Shown here piece after piece: positions 4,588-51,558 of a stretch of DNA of 64,000 nt. Numbering within the stretch: position 1 is the first letter of the stretch; each line of letters opens with the position of its first letter. Where the stretch lies: contig SJRY01000275.1 of the NCBI GenBank assembly GCA_011319805.1, positions 124,001-188,000 of the forward strand, read 5' to 3'. The notes under the pieces were generated by a model. The model did no database searches. It worked only from the letters and a program-made list of their open reading frames with translations, and had not been told where the DNA came from. A program made the position numbers and the translations under genes. This stretch comes from Macrocybe gigantea. Lineage: Eukaryota > Basidiomycota > Agaricomycetes > Agaricales > Callistosporiaceae.

Positions 4588-7334
4588 CTACCCATAAACC
4601 ATATCTTTGACAGGAAGACCTGTCAGACCTGTCAAAGAGAGATTCTCACTGCATTTCCGGGGGAGATTTTTGTAGATCGAACACAGATCCAACCATTCCT
4701 GCTTGATAATTTGTGACTTGGACCCACTGATCTGATCTTGCGGTGCTTCGCTGAAGACTACGGCAAGGCCAGCTTCCAAATGCCAGTCTACATGGAATTG
4801 AATTAGTGGGTGACGCTGTGAGCAAACGACAAGGGTTCCTACCGATATCTGTATTAAAGTTTGAAGCCAATGAACATCGTTCAGTGGTTGAACTAGGCGA
4901 CTTCAAGGTATACTCATACTCACGGCAGTGCAGGAACCTGATGGCCTTGATGAGCTTGGTTCGTACGTTAAGGACACATTCTGACTCACCAAGGTCCTGG
5001 GTTATCGGTCTTGAACCGGATGATGACGGTGGAGCCTAAGATAAAGAATTGGAAACCATTCAAAAGCTTGAGGGACGTTTGGCTCACCTCCGACTCCGAC
5101 AACGTCACGTCGAGGAGGATTGGCGTAGTTGACTCCACCGTCCCGGCCTTGGATGATATCGAAAACGTGGCCGTGAAGACTGGATGCACACTAAGCAGAG
5201 ACTGAGAGGGATGCAGAACTTGACTCACTGGAAGGGACTGTAGGTACCCAGTAATCATTCGTCAACTTTATGAATTTAACGCGTTCAGACTTACTGCACA
5301 TGACCTGAAAGTACGTCGGAAACATCAGCGTCGAACGCCTCGTAACTAAGAATCAGGCCCACCATTCGCAGAACCATGAATCTGCAGTTCTATAATCTTG
5401 TCGCGCTCCAAGACAAAAGTGTTCTCAGATGGCTGGAAGTCGCTCTCGTCCATGAACCCGTTGGCAATGACATTCAGCAAGGTCGGCAGGCTGGGTGACT
5501 CGTACGCATGACCATTGACTGTCCACTGTAAATCCGAGGTCAAGAAAACTTTAGAACCATTTCTGACGAGCACATACTTCCAGACGGTTAGTGAAGTCCC
5601 GCGTGAACTGTAAGTCGATGACTCTATCAGCAGGTGCACTGCCTCCAGGAGCACCGGGGTTCTCAAGCGGCACCAGGGAGGACTCTTGAAGTAGGGTTCC
5701 GTTCCCCGAACCTGCAGACGTAGTGGGTTCGCCAGAAGGTGCTCCTTCGTAGTGAAGAACGGCGTAGACATTTTCGGTATTAACTTGATTGTTTCGTTAG
5801 ATGGTTCGCGCTGGAAGATCTGATGCAAAGCGTACGGTTGTCGTTATCGGAAGAGTGTTGGAGCTTCATCGGGGCCCGGATCCAGTAATTGCGGACGGGT
5901 TGATTGGCATTGAGGATAACTGAGTACCGCTGCCCGGCATATATCTCGAATCCATCTACAATCAGTGGCTGATGGTTGATGCCGTCTACCTAGACGTAGA
6001 ACGTGAGTAGGGCTGTGACAATAGTAATAGTGCATACGCTTACCTCGATAATGGTTAGGCTGTGACCTTCGATAGAGAACGTGTATCCCGAGTATCCGGA
6101 TATGTTGATGACACGGAAGCGATATCGCTTCCCGGAAACTACATTGACACGCGCTCGGGTGACAGAGGGGCCACCCTCATACCTACCTATCCCATTGATC
6201 AACCCAGAATCTGGGATCTGCGACACGAACCTCAGCCACGATCGCAAACTGAAAATCTCAAGCGCTTACTGGTTCATGGTTTCCCCCGCCGTCCTCGAAG
6301 AGGTACTTGTGTCCTAGGCCATCTGCAGGCTAAAGCGACGACATGAATACCTAGAATATCAGCCATAAATATACTGACTAGATGATACCAGTCCGCAAGC
6401 GTGATAACCGTCCCCGCATTATCGACATCATAAAGGCCAAGATGAGGATCATCCGGGTCTCCAGAAATATCAGATGTGCTGTAAGGACAATATTCCTACG
6501 TCTTACCGTATACTACCAGAGCACTGTTTGAGTCCATGTCAAGACGCATGCTAGGTGGAGCGCGTCAGAACTCGAAGACTTACCCTCGTAAACCATCCAC
6601 ATATTGAGATGACAAGTGGCTACGTTACTACAATGAGCAATGGGGGCAGCTGCGATAGCGAGGCATTGGTACCTATGATACCTTTGAATTACATACTAGT
6701 CAGCGTGCTGCAGACGAAGTCGTCGCAAAAGTTTCTCACCAGAATGTCCCTGATTGACCATTCAGAGGGACTGAAAAATCGCGTCAGTTGAACGAAGAAG
6801 ACAGGAAATGTCGATGACGCCTACTATCATATGTGTAGGTATGATTTGGAGCGATGGGGCACTGGTTAACGAATGCAGCTATTTATTGATGCGGTTTGAG
6901 TGTTTGGCAGGAGGCGGGAGAATCGAGCAGACTCACGCCCATCCTCCGATGCTGTCCTGAGTTGGAACTGAACGAGATGAATGAACCGACAGAGACGTAA
7001 CCAATATTCTCCTTACCAGGCCGTGCCAGTGGATACTCGTGCTGCGCCTGTAAAAATGGGGGTGAATCAGCATCGATCAGGTAAAATTTGATCATTCACA
7101 CCTCATGGTTGGATTTGTGAGTTGATTATTGACATGAATATGAAGAACATCATTCTTCTGTGCTTGGATGAGCGTGCCTGGATAGATGCCATTGACGAGA
7201 ATGGCGGCTCGCGAGTAACCATCTGGAGCGATGTTAGCATTAACAATGTTGAAGTTAATGTCAACATCTGCCCCCAGCGCGACTGCAGGCAACAGGAAGA
7301 GCAGAGCAAGAACGGTTTCGAGAGAGGAAGTCAT
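4588..7334 (-). CDS. Laccase 1 (multicopper oxidase), microexon-rich
   Basis: Secreted laccase that oxidises phenols using four copper atoms and reduces oxygen to water. The start at 7334 gives a signal peptide ([13 protein letters not shown]) and then [17 protein letters not shown]. All four copper regions can be assembled from exons: [58 protein letters not shown]. The residue ten after the T1 cysteine is Leu, as in medium or high potential laccases. Three of the four motifs are split by very small exons: 9 nt at 6673-6681, 10 nt at 5295-5304, 9 nt at 5229-5237, 14 nt at 4924-4937 and 6 nt at 4843-4848. There are also 17-nt (6507-6523) and 31-nt (6937-6967) exons. Flanking introns are 48-75 nt with GT...AG. 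Near the end a five-base C run (4659-4663) shifts frame: six would end the protein at LPPEMQ, whereas as written it runs about 15 residues further to 4588. It is most similar in this window to laccase 3. Confidence 0.92.
4843..4848 (-). other. Laccase 1 microexon, 6 nt (HI of HCHIDWH)
   Basis: Minus-strand taatacag / ATATCG / gtaggaac. Joined between ...TGCC and ACTGGC (4787) it rebuilds C-H-I-D-W-H. Introns on either side are 75 and 55 nt. Without these six bases the frame is kept, but His and Ile are lost. Confidence 0.8.
4924..4937 (-). other. Laccase 1 microexon, 14 nt (FLHC)
   Basis: Minus-strand ggccatcag / GTTCCTGCACTGCC / gtgagtat. It encodes Phe-Leu-His-Cys, including the T1 cysteine. 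Upstream intron 52 nt, downstream intron 75 nt. Confidence 0.82.
5229..5237 (-). other. Laccase 1 microexon, 9 nt (PF of HPFHLHGH)
   Basis: Minus-strand cctacag / TCCCTTCCA / gtgagtca. It finishes the first His, encodes Pro-Phe and starts the second His of HPFHLHGH. The next exon begins T-CTT-CAC-GGC at 5179. The downstream intron is 49 nt. Confidence 0.8.
5295..5304 (-). other. Laccase 1 microexon, 10 nt (HV and first two bases of His in HPFHLHGH)
   Basis: Minus-strand tactttcag / GTCATGTGCA / gtaagtctg. It completes Gly from the previous exon (GSANG), encodes His-Val and starts the first copper-ligand histidine. Introns are 58 nt upstream and 57 nt downstream. Confidence 0.8.
6507..6523 (-). 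other. Laccase 1 microexon, 17 nt (ALVVY)
   Basis: Minus-strand ...ctcaaacag / 17 nt / gtaagac. It bridges GLRG to [13 protein letters not shown] in frame. Flanking introns are about 70 and 48 nt. The same-length exon occurs in laccase 3 at 50719-50735. Confidence 0.75.
6673..6681 (-). other. Laccase 1 microexon, 9 nt (tyrosine and histidine of WYHSH)
   Basis: Minus-strand ttcaaag / GTATCATAG / gtacca. It joins an exon ending TTCTG (edge 6741) to one starting CCACTTG (6619), giving W-Y-H-S-H-L. Flanking introns are 59 and 53 nt. The histidine is a copper ligand in this family. Confidence 0.8.
6937..6967 (-). other. Laccase 1 exon of 31 nt ([10 protein letters not shown])
   Basis: On the minus strand the exon follows ...ctcgttcag and is followed by gtgagt. 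It encodes the segment joining HWHGL to PAFVNQCPI. Laccase 3 has an exon of the same length at 51151-51181. Confidence 0.75.
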
Positions 7335-17958: not shown

Positions 17959-18787
17959 CTAGTTGGTTGTTTTGTTTTCGATATCTGGTACTTACGGCGG
18001 ATTAAAGGACAAAGGACATCTTATAATTCTGGTTTCAATGGATCAAGTTCAAATGCATACTACACGTTATGTGCTCTGCTTTCCATTCCCGTTCCTGTCC
18101 ACTGAACAAAACGTCCCTGTACCAAAAGACGCGTCACGCGTTGTTTGGCGCTGTGTTCGCATGTTGGTGGCAGCTATGCAATCCATTATCAAGTCCTTGA
18201 CTTCACCGACAACGTAGCACCACTGGCCAAGTGCCCTAAAAAGAGTCAGCGAGGATTTCACATATTCGCCCACTGTGCTCTGCTTTTCTCTACCCGGTGT
18301 CACATTCGACACCGGCGTCGTTGACCCTCTCGCCGATCAATCAAAAGCTATCTGCCGGCGAGAAGGGCGGGTTTCCTTGGATTAGGCCGCTGTTATCTTT
18401 AGAAGAAGATATAGTTCGGCGTTTTGGCTTCTGCATTCGAGAAGTTGAGGCCGAAATGAACCGTCTCACTCGACCCGGCGCGAACAGATCGAATTTTCTT
18501 CATAATTCCACTCGACGTTGATGATCACGTCCGAAACGACCTTCTCAACCACCCCTTCCCGTTTCCGTACGAGTTCGCTTTTCTTGCGCTTTGCCGACTA
18601 GGAATGGAACCATCAAGACGAAACTTGACCTTTCTTGGAACGGTAAGTTTGCTATCACACAGACGCTGATGTTAGTCACAGAGCGGCCATTCGTGGATGA
18701 GTGATGCATGGAATGCCGTAATTCAAACAAGGGCATTTAAACGCTTTTGAAGCATTGACTCGTCTCCCCCCTTTGACATTGCTAACT
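17959..18787. other. Intergenic region, no gene seen
   Basis: About 830 bases between two plus-strand genes. Only short frames are present, with no motif, RNA gene or repeat. It must contain the promoter of laccase 2. Confidence 0.45.
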
Positions 18788-20993
18788 ATGATCGGTACAG
18801 CCGGTTTGCTGTACGCTTGCGCCCTACTGGTTGCAGCCCGCGCCATTGCGATCGGTCCAACCGCTGAGTTGAAGATTGTCAATGCGAACATCAGCCCTGA
18901 TGGCTTTGAGAGAGGGTTCGCATTCATTTACGAAGAAAAGCGTACCTCGTTAACGACGCTAACTTGTTCGTAGAGCCGTTCTCGCAGGTGGGACGTTTCC
19001 CGGGCCAGTGATTCGGGGCACCAAGGTATCTCAATGCCCTGTATGAGCCATGGATTGTTTTGATGCGGATCCACTTTTTTCAGGGAAGTAGTTTTCGGCT
19101 TAACGTCGTCAACGCCCTTACGGATAATAGGATGCGCCGTAGCACCAGCATCGTAAGTTTCCCGCTTGCATGGATTATACAAGGCCAACCTGATTTTCGT
19201 GAACAGCACTGGCACGGCATTCATCAGCGTGGCAGCAGCTGGGCAGACGGGCCCAGCTTCGTGACTCAGTGCCCCATTGGTCCCGGCGATTCGTTCCTCT
19301 ACGATTTTACGGTTGCGGATCAAGCTGGTACCTTCTGGTACCATTCACATACGTGTGCGTTCAATTCTCCTTCATTCAGCTGATGTATCTGAGGCCCCCT
19401 CTATAGCTACTCAATATTGTGATGGATTACGTGGGGCGTTTATCGTCTATGATCCACATGACCCTTATAAGCATCTGTACGATGTGGACGATGGTATATT
19501 ACTTCAATCTATCTGATTCATCTTCCTGCAGCATTCTGACTCATCCATGCCGCAGAATCGACCATCATTACATTGGCAGATTGGTACAGTTGCCCGGTGG
19601 AGTTAAACGATTTGACGCTAAATTTATTCGTTTTCAGGTTTCATGTTTATGCGAAAGACGCCTTGGTTGTCGGCAACCCACCTCCTGAGGCCGCTTCCAT
19701 TTTGATCAATGGAAAAGGACGGTACAGAGGCGGTCCTTTAGTCCCGCTTTCGGTCGTCAATGTCAAGCGCTCCAAGAGATACCGATTCCGAATCATAGCA
19801 ATGACCTGCGATCCCAGCCTCATCTTTTCGATTGATCAACACAAACTGACCATAATCGAAGCAGATGGCGTCAACACTGAACCTCTTGAAGTCGACTCTA
19901 TCCAGATTTTCGCAGCCCAGCGCTATTCAGTAGTCTTCAACGCCAATCAAGCGGTCGGGAACTACTGGATCCGCGCGAGCACCAGCGAGCTCGATGGCGT
20001 CTCTGATTTTGCCAATGCGACCAACTCGGCGATCCTTCGTTACGCGGGCGCTCCAAATGCTGACCCAACTACACCTGAACGGGCAAGCACAAAGCCTCTG
20101 AAGGAGACAGATCTCCATCCATTGACCAACCCAAAACCACCCGGATTACCTGTTCCAGGCGGAGCTGATGTGGTGATCAACCTGAAGCAAGGCTTCAACT
20201 CCGAGACGTGGAAGTATGAGATGAACGGAGTGCCGTTCATTGCTCCAACTGTTCCCGTCTTACTCCAGATCCTTAGCGGCGCTGGATCTGCCCAAGATCT
20301 GTTGCCTCCTGGGAGCATCTATGAACTTCCACGCAACAAAACGATCGAGATTTCACTGCCTGGAACCAGTGCCGAACTTGATGGACCAGTGAGTTCCTTT
20401 CGTGACCAAAGCACGTCAGCGACTCAAACAGTGTTTTTTAATAGCACCCTTTCCATCTCCACGGAGTACGTGATCGTGGCGTTGATGGGATTGCAAAGCT
20501 CTTGATAAATGTTGTAGCACGAGTTCTATGTGGTCAGGAGCGCGAACTCCACGGCATACAATTTCGTAAACCCTGTTCGGCGTGACACCGTCTCGACAGG
20601 TCTTGCTGACAGCAACACGACCATCCGCTTTGTGACCGACAACAACGGGCCATGGTTTCTACATTGGTATGTGACTATCGTACAAGGCATATCGTTTCAC
20701 CAATCGACTCTTCTCAGTCACATTGATTGGCACTTGGAACTGTACGTGTATTCTTCTTTCTCTTTTTCTTTGTCGTTTTTATTTATTTGTTCTGTGCTGC
20801 TGTGTATGCTAACCTTTTCCTTTTGCCAGGGGTCTCGCCGTCGTCTTCGCCGAGAATATTCCAGGAATCAAGCAAAGCAACCATCCAAGTGAGTAAGCTA
20901 TCTTCGGTGGTTGGACCTCTACCTGAAGACTTTGCAGAATCCTGGGACGAGCTTTGCCCTAAGTATGAGAAATTGCCTCCTGAACTGCAGTGA
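18788..20993 (+). CDS. Laccase 2 (multicopper oxidase)
   Basis: Secreted laccase with a signal peptide ([21 protein letters not shown]) and then [17 protein letters not shown]. Copper regions are [49 protein letters not shown] and [18 protein letters not shown]. The residue ten after the T1 cysteine is Leu. Exons assemble without any frame break, ending [10 protein letters not shown] at 20991-20993. The motif HPFHLHG is encoded by exactly one 21-nt exon (20445-20465). The HCHIDWH motif is cut once, inside the Cys codon, rather than into microexons as in laccases 1 and 3. The last intron is 51 nt, with donor gtgagt and acceptor tttgcag. It is transcribed opposite to the other two laccases and more divergent from them (HQRG instead of FQxRTASEDG; GPHPFHLHGHEF). 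Low in-exon polymorphism signs and intact motifs indicate a working gene. Confidence 0.93.
20445..20465 (+). other. Laccase 2 exon of 21 nt encoding exactly HPFHLHG
   Basis: Preceded by tttttaatag and followed by gtacgtgatc. The seven codons are the T1/T3 copper motif itself, in phase 0 at both ends. Introns are 56 nt (20389-20444) and 52 nt (20466-20517). Confidence 0.85.
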
Positions 20994-48859: not shown

Positions 48860-51558
48860 TCACTGCTGGTCTGGAGGAAGGCTTTGATAGATCGGGCACA
48901 GATCTAACCACGACTGTTTGATGATCACGGATTGAGGCCCGCTGATCTGATCAGTCGGTGCTTCGCTGAACACGACAGCTAAGCCGGCCTCGAGATGCCA
49001 ATCTGTCAACGGTCGGTCAATTTCGCCTAGAACGTGAGCGTGAGATCGAGAATACAAGCGCACCGATGTCTGACATTGGGATAATCACGACAATGATCAG
49101 AGAGTTGCTCGAAGATTTAGCTCTACGACGTACGACAATGCAAGAACCTGGTGGATGATTGTGAATGACTTGGGAGGAAAGCGAGGAATTACGCTAAGCT
49201 CACCATGGGCCGGGATTATCCGTCTTGAAGCGAATGATTACCGTGGAACCTGGCTGAGGTCAGAGAAGCCCTAAGTCGGTAGAGTGCTCATCTATACCTC
49301 CCACGCCAACGACGTCCCGACGTGGCGGATTAGCATAGTTGACACCGCCACTCATTCCTTGGATAATGTCGAATGCATGGCCGTGGAGACTATCACATAA
49401 TGAGTGACAACGGCGAGTAACGAAGCGACACGAAAACTCACTGGAATGGGCTACGAAAAAGGCCGGAAATATCAGCGTCCCTTTTTGCATAAAGAATTTC
49501 CTTGGTCTACACACTGCACATGTCCTACGAAACCGTTGAGCTAAAGAGATACAAAAATGAGGATGGGTATATCCTACCATTGGCGGAGCCATGAATCTGG
49601 AGCTCTATGACCTTGTTCTTCTCCAGGACGAAGGTATGTTCTGACGGAGTGAAGTCGCTTTCAGTCAAGAAGCTGTTAGCGATGACATTGAGCAAAGTAG
49701 GCAGATCAGGAGGTTCATAGCGAATTCCATTTATAGTCCACTGCACTCGCATCAGGCATGCACCATGGTTATCTTAAGGGACGTACCTCTGTTTGGCCGT
49801 TGAAACCATGACCGAATTGCAAATCTATCACTCTATCAGCAGGAGCGCTGCCCCAGGTGCGCCAGGGTTTTCAAGAGGATGAAGGAGAGATTCATCGAGT
49901 AGTATTCCACCAGACGATGGGGCGAGGCTCGAGCTCGGTTCCCCAGACGAGGCTCCTTCGTAATGCAATACTGCGAAAACATTCTGCGTATCCACTGGTA
50001 AATGAGGGTCAGCATGCGAACAGACGACACCTTGAAACACGAACAGTTCGTATTATCCGAAGAATGCTGTAGTTCCATTGGCGCTCGAACCCAGTAATTG
50101 TCGACTGGCTGGTTAGCCGCGACAACAACCGAGTAACGTTGAGCAGCATAGATGTCGAATTGATCAACAGTCAAAGGGACGTGGTTGATACCGTCGACCT
50201 ATAAACGCCAAAGGAGTTGGATTACTGACGGCCGTCTGTAGAAGTGAACAACAACATACCTCAATTATCGTCATTCTATGGCCATCGATGGAGAATCTAA
50301 ACCCTGAGCAGGCGGAGAGGTTGACAACGCGGAAGCGGTAGCGTTTTCCTTGAACCACGTTGATGCGAGCACGGGCCACGGCGGGGCCGCCGTTGTACCT
50401 GCCGATGCCATTGATCAATCCTGAGTCAGGAACCTTGGCTCATAAGTTCAGATTTGGCCTGCAATGCTCAACAAGGATGCTTACCGGCTCAGCCGTGGTT
50501 CCATTCAGGAATTTTTCTCCGAGGATAGGAGCAGCCTTTGTCGAACGTCAGCGTTGCGCGATCGCGACGAAGCAAGTATGGGCATACTTGGTGGTACCAG
50601 TCCGCCAGTGTAATGACGGTATTCGCATCATCGACGTCGTACAAGCTCTTGTGAGGATCGTTCGGATCTAAGGCTTTGTCAGTTCTGGGAAAAAATTAGC
50701 GGCAAATAGTTTGCATACCGTAAACCACAAGGGCTCTATAGCGACATACAGTAAGTCAAAAGGCACGATTTTAACGCTTGACTTTCACACTCACCCACGA
50801 AGACCATCGACATACTGCGAAGAAAGATGACTACGAAAAAAGACGATTAAAAATCCTGCAAGCGGAACATAAATACGTTCCTACCTGTGGTACCTGTAAT
50901 CGAATGCTCAGTCAGTCAACCGTTCCAATAGAAACGAGTAAACTGGACATTATTACCAGAAAGTACCAGCCTGACCATTGAGCGGTACTGCGGAACATGT
51001 TAGTCATTTATCATAAGAAGAGAGAATGGTACTCCTTACTGTCATATGTATATGAATGGCCCGGAGAAATGGGACACTGGTTGACGAAGGCAGCTGATCT
51101 AGTCCAGAATAAGTTCGAGTGCATTCGGAATATGAGTCAGGAACACGTACGCCCATCTTCAGATGCGGTTCTGGCTTGGAACTGCCAAGATGGTGTCAGA
51201 TCTGCTAGAATCCACGAAACTGGAATGACGGACGAACCAATCCGTGCCAATGGATGCTGGTGCTCCGCCTGCAGAACCGAAACCATGTTAGACCTAATAT
51301 GCGAGTATGGCAGAGTCGCTACCTCATTGTCGGATCGGTTAGCTGGTTGTTGGCGGTGATATGGAGAGTATCCGTCTTCTGGGCTTGGATCAGCGTTCCT
51401 GGGTATATTCCATTGACTAGTATGCTAGAACGCGTGAAGCCATCCGGTGCAATGTTCGAATTGGCAATGTTGAAATTGATATTAACGTCAGCCCCACTGA
51501 CGAGCCACGGTACTAGGACCAAGAAAGAGCAGAGAGATCGAAAAGCAGGTCGAATCAT
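48860..51558 (-). CDS. Laccase 3 (multicopper oxidase), microexon-rich
   Basis: Close paralogue of laccase 1. The start at 51558 gives a signal peptide ([17 protein letters not shown]) and [18 protein letters not shown]. Copper regions after splicing are [38 protein letters not shown] and [20 protein letters not shown]. They are cut at the same places as in laccase 1 by exons of 9 nt (50885-50893), 10 nt (49515-49524), 9 nt (49442-49450), 14 nt (49134-49147) and 6 nt (49064-49069). Shared 17-nt (50719-50735) and 31-nt (51151-51181) exons are also present. The C terminus is [21 protein letters not shown] four-C run on the plus strand (49851-49854) shifts frame in the segment corresponding to [12 protein letters not shown] of laccase 1; a fifth base restores it. 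Leu at the T1 axial position. Confidence 0.9.
49064..49069 (-). other. Laccase 3 microexon, 6 nt (HI of HCHIDWH)
   Basis: Minus-strand caatgtcag / ACATCG / gtgcgctt. Joined between ...TGTC and ATTGGC (49002) it rebuilds C-H-I-D-W-H. The downstream intron is 61 nt. Confidence 0.8.
49134..49147 (-). other. Laccase 3 microexon, 14 nt (FLHC)
   Basis: Minus-strand tccaccag / GTTCTTGCATTGTC / gtacgtcg. It carries the T1 cysteine codon. Introns are 56 and 64 nt. Confidence 0.82.
49442..49450 (-). other. Laccase 3 microexon, 9 nt (PF of HPFHLHGH)
   Basis: Minus-strand tttttcgtag / CCCATTCCA / gtgagttt. The following exon starts T-CTC-CAC-GGC at 49389 after a 52-nt intron. Confidence 0.8.
49515..49524 (-). 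other. Laccase 3 microexon, 10 nt (HV and start of HPFHLHGH)
   Basis: Minus-strand gtttcgtag / GACATGTGCA / gtgtgtag. Preceded by a 53-nt intron after GSANG and followed by a 64-nt intron. Confidence 0.78.
50719..50735 (-). other. Laccase 3 microexon, 17 nt (ALVVY)
   Basis: Minus-strand gtcgctatag / 17 nt / gtatgcaaa. Bridges GLRG and [13 protein letters not shown]. Introns 59 and 51 nt. Confidence 0.75.
50885..50893 (-). other. Laccase 3 microexon, 9 nt (tyrosine and histidine of WYHSH)
   Basis: Minus-strand cgattacag / GTACCACAG / gtaggaac. Joined to TTTCTG (edge 50957) and TCATCTT (50831) it gives W-Y-H-S-H. Introns are 63 and 53 nt. Confidence 0.8.
51151..51181 (-). other. Laccase 3 exon of 31 nt ([10 protein letters not shown])
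   Basis: Minus-strand ttggcag-type acceptor context before TTCCAAGCC and donor gtacgtg after GATGGGC. Same length and phase as the laccase 1 exon at 6937-6967. Confidence 0.7.

Follow-up and report, generated by a model that had tools for sequence, protein, structure and literature searches.

The DNA analysed here (hereafter the window) is a stretch of 64,000 nucleotides, contig C274:124001-188000 of the 41.2-Mb Macrocybe gigantea assembly, which consists of 333 contigs. On its minus strand the window carries a laccase gene with 21 exons, and the gene and those of its parts that are discussed below are as follows.

4588..7334, minus strand: laccase gene of putative lcc16/lcc17 (subfamily 2) type, 21 exons, 551 aa (spliced model, Pfam domains, homologue identity)
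6673..6681, minus strand: exon 6, 9 nt, GTATCATAG, within WYHSH (gene model and spliced aligner)
6507..6523, minus strand: exon 8, 17 nt, encoding G-A-L-V-V-Y (gene model and spliced aligner)
5295..5304, minus strand: exon 15, 10 nt, GTCATGTGCA, encoding G-H-V and the first two bases of H (gene model and spliced aligner)
5229..5237, minus strand: exon 16, 9 nt, TCCCTTCCA, within HPFHLHGH (gene model and spliced aligner)
4938..4989, minus strand: intron 18, 52 nt (gene model)
4924..4937, minus strand: exon 19, 14 nt, GTTCCTGCACTGCC, encoding the end of W, F-L-H-C and the first base of H (gene model and spliced aligner)
4849..4923, minus strand: intron 19, 75 nt, the longest of the 20, free of in-frame stops, divisible by three in length and with no CTNAY branch-site match (gene model, splice-site scan)
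4843..4848, minus strand: exon 20, 6 nt, ATATCG, completing His484 and supplying Ile485 plus the initial base of Asp486 in HCHIDWH (gene model, spliced aligner, enumeration)
4788..4842, minus strand: intron 20, 55 nt, GTAGGA...TAG, with CTAAT 16 nt from the 3' splice site (gene model, splice-site scan)
4588..4787, minus strand: exon 21, encoding D-W-H-L-E-A... through the stop (gene model)

The exons were linked via conserved motifs, and this motif-guided joining gave 551 codons free of internal stop across the 21 exons, with introns that are all GT-AG and 48-75 nt long (n = 20). A spliced aligner written for the present analysis returned the same internal splice boundaries from the gene's own protein and from all five foreign templates (P0001, P0003, P0012, P0031, and P0033); the template affected only where exon 1 begins and exon 21 ends. 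The protein matched PF07732, PF00394, and PF07731 (Cu-oxidase_3, Cu-oxidase, and Cu-oxidase_2) above cut-off, giving three cupredoxin domains, and its ligand regions L1-L4 were complete (HWH, WYHSH, HPFHLHGH, and HCHIDWH). The gene product is predicted to be an ordinary secreted laccase whose T1/T3 motif is intact. A homologue search gave 3,948 matches, and among the best 120, which were examined, the top named relatives were agarics, the first being laccase 16 of Crucibulum laeve at 76% identity, which is also the value reached by matches labelled laccase 16 or 17; C. cinerea Lcc16 and Lcc17 (P0042 and P0033) showed 65% identity. The 7334-4588 gene thus appears to group with Lcc16/Lcc17, subfamily 2, rather than with subfamily 1. 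For the subfamily 2 of C. cinerea Lcc16/Lcc17, the source named by a review is reportedly Kilaru et al. 2006. A comparison with a plasmid collection gave no match.

The first-pass annotation of this DNA had claimed that HCHIDWH forms only if a 14-nt and a 6-nt exon are both spliced in, and enumeration of the possible joins confirmed this. On the minus strand, CCAGGACCTTG is followed by an intron of 52 nt (gtgagt...cag), GTTCCTGCACTGCC, an intron of 75 nt (gtgagt...cag), ATATCG, an intron of 55 nt (gtagga...tag) and ACTGGCATTTGG, and removal of the three introns yields PGPWFLHCHIDWH. The exon and intron lengths agree with those claimed, and the splice sites are canonical as stated there, except that three introns have six sites and not four, all six being canonical. 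When joins from exon 18 to exon 21 were allowed no more than four GT/GC-AG introns, with the minimum intron set to 12, 20, 30 or 40 nt, we found exactly one splice solution for GPWFLHCH[ILVM][DEN]WHL, the same path with introns of 52, 75, and 55 nt each time. With 6 nt between canonical sites (AG/ATATCG/GT), exon 20 fits the size of a microexon (15 nt or less). A chance origin of the 6-mer was rejected: when the 136-nt composite intron was shuffled base by base 300,000 times, only 77 shuffles gave an in-phase 6-nt His-Ile exon with both introns at least 40 nt long, and a paralogue repeats the exon (see below).

The splice sites flanking exon 20 are of middling to weak score. Ranked against 96 introns of other laccases of the same genome, the donor and acceptor of intron 19 fall at the 29th and 66th percentiles and those of intron 20 at the 14th and 24th. 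The lack of a CTNAY match in intron 19 is shared with seven further introns of the gene's 20. Introns beside microexons are longer than the others (median 56.5 vs. 52 nt; 16 vs. 24 introns, one-sided P 0.006, with two paralogues pooled and therefore non-independent). The first-pass annotation had described only part of the fragmentation of this gene: its exons of 14 and 6 nt are borne out, and exons of 9, 10, 9, and 17 nt have to be added, of which those of 9, 10, and 9 nt sit at two other copper motifs, WYHSH and HPFHLHGH.

The window contains a second gene of the same kind.

48864..51546, minus strand: second subfamily-2 laccase, microexons of 9, 17, 10, 9, 14, and 6 nt, outer ends approximate (spliced models)
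49064..49069, minus strand: 6-nt microexon ACATCG of the second subfamily-2 laccase, at the same position and phase as ATATCG (spliced models, alignment)

A haplotig copy of this second gene lies on the 31-kb contig C93, with 39 differing columns of 2,692 aligned, and it also carries microexons of 9, 17, 10, 9, 14, and 6 nt, the last again being ACATCG. Exons 2-20 of the C93 copy match those of the 7334-4588 gene in length save exon 10 (51 for 60 nt), exon 13 (209 for 206) and exon 17 (89 for 92); in the window copy (51,546-48,864), exon 17 is 92 nt and exon 13 is broken. All 20 intron positions of the 7334-4588 gene are common to the C93 copy, and 19 of them to the window copy. Aligned with the C93 copy, the 7334-4588 gene is identical in 858 of 1233 columns of exons 2-20 and in 629 of 1242 intron columns (50.6%), where shuffled introns give a mean of 45.3%. 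The microexon has been kept while its introns diverged close to the shuffled background. Compared with C93, the exon 13 region of the window copy (about 49,994-49,745) has small indels and no single open frame, a defect that may reflect either allele damage or an assembly error.

The remaining laccases of the genome have another exon-intron layout. Nineteen of the 20 intron positions of the 7334-4588 gene are absent from all 10 other laccase models, and the last one, that of intron 13, matches an intron of model C113_58k in a stretch where that model is doubtful. In eight of the 10 models HP-F/I-HLHG lies on an exon of 21 nt and CHI-D/N-WHLE on one of 24 nt, the exceptions being the ragged models on C212 and C269. 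The window also contains a third laccase (18734-20990, plus strand), which is of the subfamily-1 type and likewise has a 21-nt exon for HPFHLHG and a 24-nt exon for CHIDWHLE. The two ragged models (L022 and L023), one of which has an in-frame stop, seem to be one locus on two contigs, possibly a decaying gene.

We then compared the site in homologous proteins. Among the best 120 of the 3,948 matches, 108 had an intact HCH-x-x-W/F-H and 12 did not match; the latter comprised two with HCHWH, three with HCHI and five with HC followed by foreign sequence, and two without the site. The foreign stretches start about at the positions expected of intron 19 or 20. A search with the C-terminal part gave 115 proteins, of which 103 matched the motif, 12 had other sequences and none had the skip form, HCHWH. 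Querying with the skip form itself gave 234 matches, and of the 43 new ones among the best 120 listed, 37 were intact, five were other forms and one was a skip form (P0236). Skip forms were thus seen in three of the 278 homologue proteins examined (P0022, P0035, and P0236, from three species). In the best 120 homologues (residues 30-530), 27 of 68 insertions of 6 aa or more lay within 3 aa of junctions of the 7334-4588 gene, a zone that takes up 22% of positions. Two of the proteins come from unbroken ORFs with HCHIDWH, of 565 aa for P0002 (longest contig 2,206 nt) and 164 aa for P0121 (contig of 1,010 nt); the small size of these contigs suggests that they represent spliced mRNA, and as such they would lend indirect support to a microexon present in mature RNA. 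One match, P0199, is labelled Homo sapiens 'MY 01 protein' (Q6XKX7) and shows 61% identity to the laccase of the 7334-4588 gene across half the C-terminal query; this entry looks contaminated or mislabelled.

The C. cinerea proteins belong to the same sequence family as the 7334-4588 gene product, and their gene models are damaged at corresponding places. Lcc17 (P0033) reads HCHIDWH where model P0236, a second record of that protein, reads HCH--WH between identical neighbouring residues; P0236 is identical to P0033 in 465 of 514 aligned residues, is also without PFHLHGHAFS, and is misread over a further stretch. Likewise, P0046 is identical to Lcc16 (P0042) in 521 of 523 residues, and has THCH where Lcc16 reads THWYHSH, losing part of WYHSH. 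The loss of Ile-Asp and the THCH are what would be expected if a 6-nt and a 9-nt exon were missed at the positions that they occupy in the 7334-4588 gene. C. cinerea lcc16/lcc17 therefore probably share the 6- and 9-nt exons, a reading drawn from the proteins on the assumption that the models are automatic.

Could exon 20 be a cassette whose skipping switches the enzyme off, as the first-pass annotation had proposed? Skipping in silico is frame-neutral, as claimed there, and preserves the downstream protein with HCHWH in place of HCHIDWH. The accompanying claim that a ligand His and an Ile are removed holds for the Ile only; Asp is lost with it, and the split codon C/AT becomes C/AC, still His, so that all ligand His and Cys letters are kept. 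The last His moves two residues closer, and PS00080, whose pattern is H-C-H-x(3)-H as quoted in PMC3129051, is broken, as would be the T1 site. Precedent exists in a microexon switch of Trichoderma Xlr2, presented in an abstract that calls functional microexons previously undescribed in filamentous fungi (PMC11121469), and the three skip-form models could be taken to favor such a switch. However, each of the three is an NCBI genome gene model whose HPFHLHGH site is broken as well, which points to annotation error and leaves regulated skipping without support. One paper gives two figures for Schizophyllum commune: its main analysis puts skipping at 1% of coding-region events, and its count by junctions finds 1,527 skipping events inside coding regions vs. 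7,851 alternative sites (PMC5034255); given this second count, the 1% is no decisive argument against skipping. Taking into account that none of the 115 proteins of the C-terminal search was a skip form, we consider regulated skipping improbable.

Retention of intron 19 as a real alternative form is in our judgement still less probable. This intron is 75 nt long, in frame and stop-free, and in silico its retention inserts 25 residues that replace the second His of HCH (HC-REYEYTL...NT-DIDWH), whereas retention of intron 20 or skipping of exon 19 shifts the frame. Two relatives' models (P0032 and P0044) appear to enter the same intron, intron retention is described as the commonest coding event in S. 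commune (PMC5034255), and introns upstream of plant microexons are reported to be often detained (PMC8831610). The open frame is nevertheless not conserved, since intron 19 of the paralogue is 64 nt and not divisible by three, and retention destroys a ligand motif that is intact in 108 of the best 120 homologues. As for HCHIDWH arising by another join without any 6-nt exon, a well-placed AG-N6-GT is frequent by chance (2,593 of 20,000 shuffles), yet the enumeration, which covered GT/GC-AG introns, gave no other solution at any minimum intron length tried, and the paralogue repeats the 6-nt exon. Alternative GT/GC-AG joins were accordingly rejected, and we give this explanation next to no weight.

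We therefore favor, with a probability of about 0.9, that ATATCG is a constitutive 6-nt coding microexon and belongs to an old and highly fragmented exon layout of laccases of the lcc16/lcc17 type (subfamily 2). The anatomy, the single splice solution and the conservation in paralogue and haplotig are observed directly, and the inclusion of ATATCG in the mRNA is inferred from the genomic sequence. Under constitutive inclusion, both short flanking introns would be recognised by intron definition, and as 6 nt would be too short for two complexes at once, the introns would be removed one after the other, as has been proposed for plant microexons (PMC8831610). Whichever intron left first, the microexon would by then have merged into an exon of 20 or 206 nt, and the junction still to be made would be a more ordinary one. 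Splicing slips would then mainly be retention of intron 19 or intron 20, and any skipping would yield a probably inactive protein with HCHWH. The gene is a compact test case for short-intron splicing around a 6-nt exon.

Parts of this picture are already in print, namely 6-bp fungal exons and the unusual introns of subfamily 2. The P450 genes of Phanerochaete chrysosporium, likewise a basidiomycete with small introns, have a shortest exon of 6 bp, although they are another gene family and their microexons encode 2-10 aa (PMC1184071). Intron distribution is stated to separate C. cinerea Lcc16/Lcc17 from the other 15 laccases (PMC3129051); the statements taken from that paper do not mention microexons, and our comparison was made through proteins. 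PoLac2 of Pleurotus ostreatus is given 21 introns, the most of the 12 laccase genes in that genome (PMC6017272). In 2015, 6 nt still stood as the smallest constitutive exon on record according to the abstract announcing a 1-nt exon, with RNA support, in Arabidopsis APC11 (PMC4674806), and the ultra-small exon of Fusarium CYP621A is also given as 1 nt (PMC12940212); the earlier remark that 6 nt is at the lower limit of known exons is therefore outdated. The CYP621A exon was, by that account, inferred from conserved protein sequence and then confirmed by reads (PMC12940212), whereas the 6-nt exon described here is read from genomic DNA. Conserved plant microexons are described as likewise old and often misannotated, in work on plants that is RNA-seq based (PMC8831610). 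In the titles and abstract openings listed for open-licence PMC papers, we found no microexon in a laccase copper motif. To these published findings the present analysis adds the precise set of microexons that the 7334-4588 gene has at its copper motifs, the conservation of that set in the paralogue and the signs of the misannotation that it causes in relatives. Broken copper motifs in some public laccase models are most likely due to such tiny exons, and sequences taken from broken records would bring a wrong active site into enzyme work or trees.

The microexons prompted the question of where introns lie relative to the copper ligands. In the 7334-4588 gene, nine of the 20 introns fall within 12 nt (four codons) of the ligand spans, which make up 51 of 551 residues; the random mean was 1.90, and none of 20,000 placements had as many. 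The subfamily-1 genes of the genome have six of 14 shared intron positions within four codons of the spans, and in three of these genes 6/12, 6/14, and 6/10 introns were near ligands (as many in 2, 4, and 1 of 5,000 random placements, respectively); the ligand-proximal introns of the two subfamilies are at different positions. Conserved stretches are favored by introns generally (mean percentile 0.68; 68 of 20,000), as judged from an alignment of this protein, 89 of the best 120 homologues (selected by length and intact motifs) and eight genes of the genome. Compared with other top-quartile stretches, the ligand spans have 17.6 vs. 4.3 introns per 100 residues in the 7334-4588 gene and 11.8 vs. 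2.1 in subfamily 1, with conservation matched by quartile only. It is possible, though we hold the idea tentatively and would not bet on it, that copper-ligand codons are hot spots where introns arise or persist in sensu stricto laccases; the test was devised after the data had been seen, and subfamily 1 is a partly independent check. If true, the 6-nt exon would mark the far end of a process in which introns were inserted again and again into a single motif.

The idea that such a hot spot holds for multicopper oxidases in general was rejected. Five other loci of the genome had 2/18, 2/19, 0/21, 3/20, and 3/8 introns near ligand spans, where 1.08, 0.99, 0.56, 2.00, and 0.75 were expected at random, and as many or more were obtained in 1194, 1054, 4000, 1282, and 122 of 4000 placements. 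Of these five results the final one alone is suggestive, in what is a weak test with one or two of four motifs found at three of the loci and models from distant templates. A hidden 9-nt HWH exon in genes of the type on C327 and C244 was also looked for and not found in the seven loci scanned, where the models read NFDG or DFDG. The multicopper oxidase-like genes L015 and L016 (C327) and L018 (C244) have NFDG or DFDG in place of HWHG and HSQ or HSE for HSH, and by their sequences possibly lack some copper ligands; L014 and L019 are probable haplotigs of these genes.
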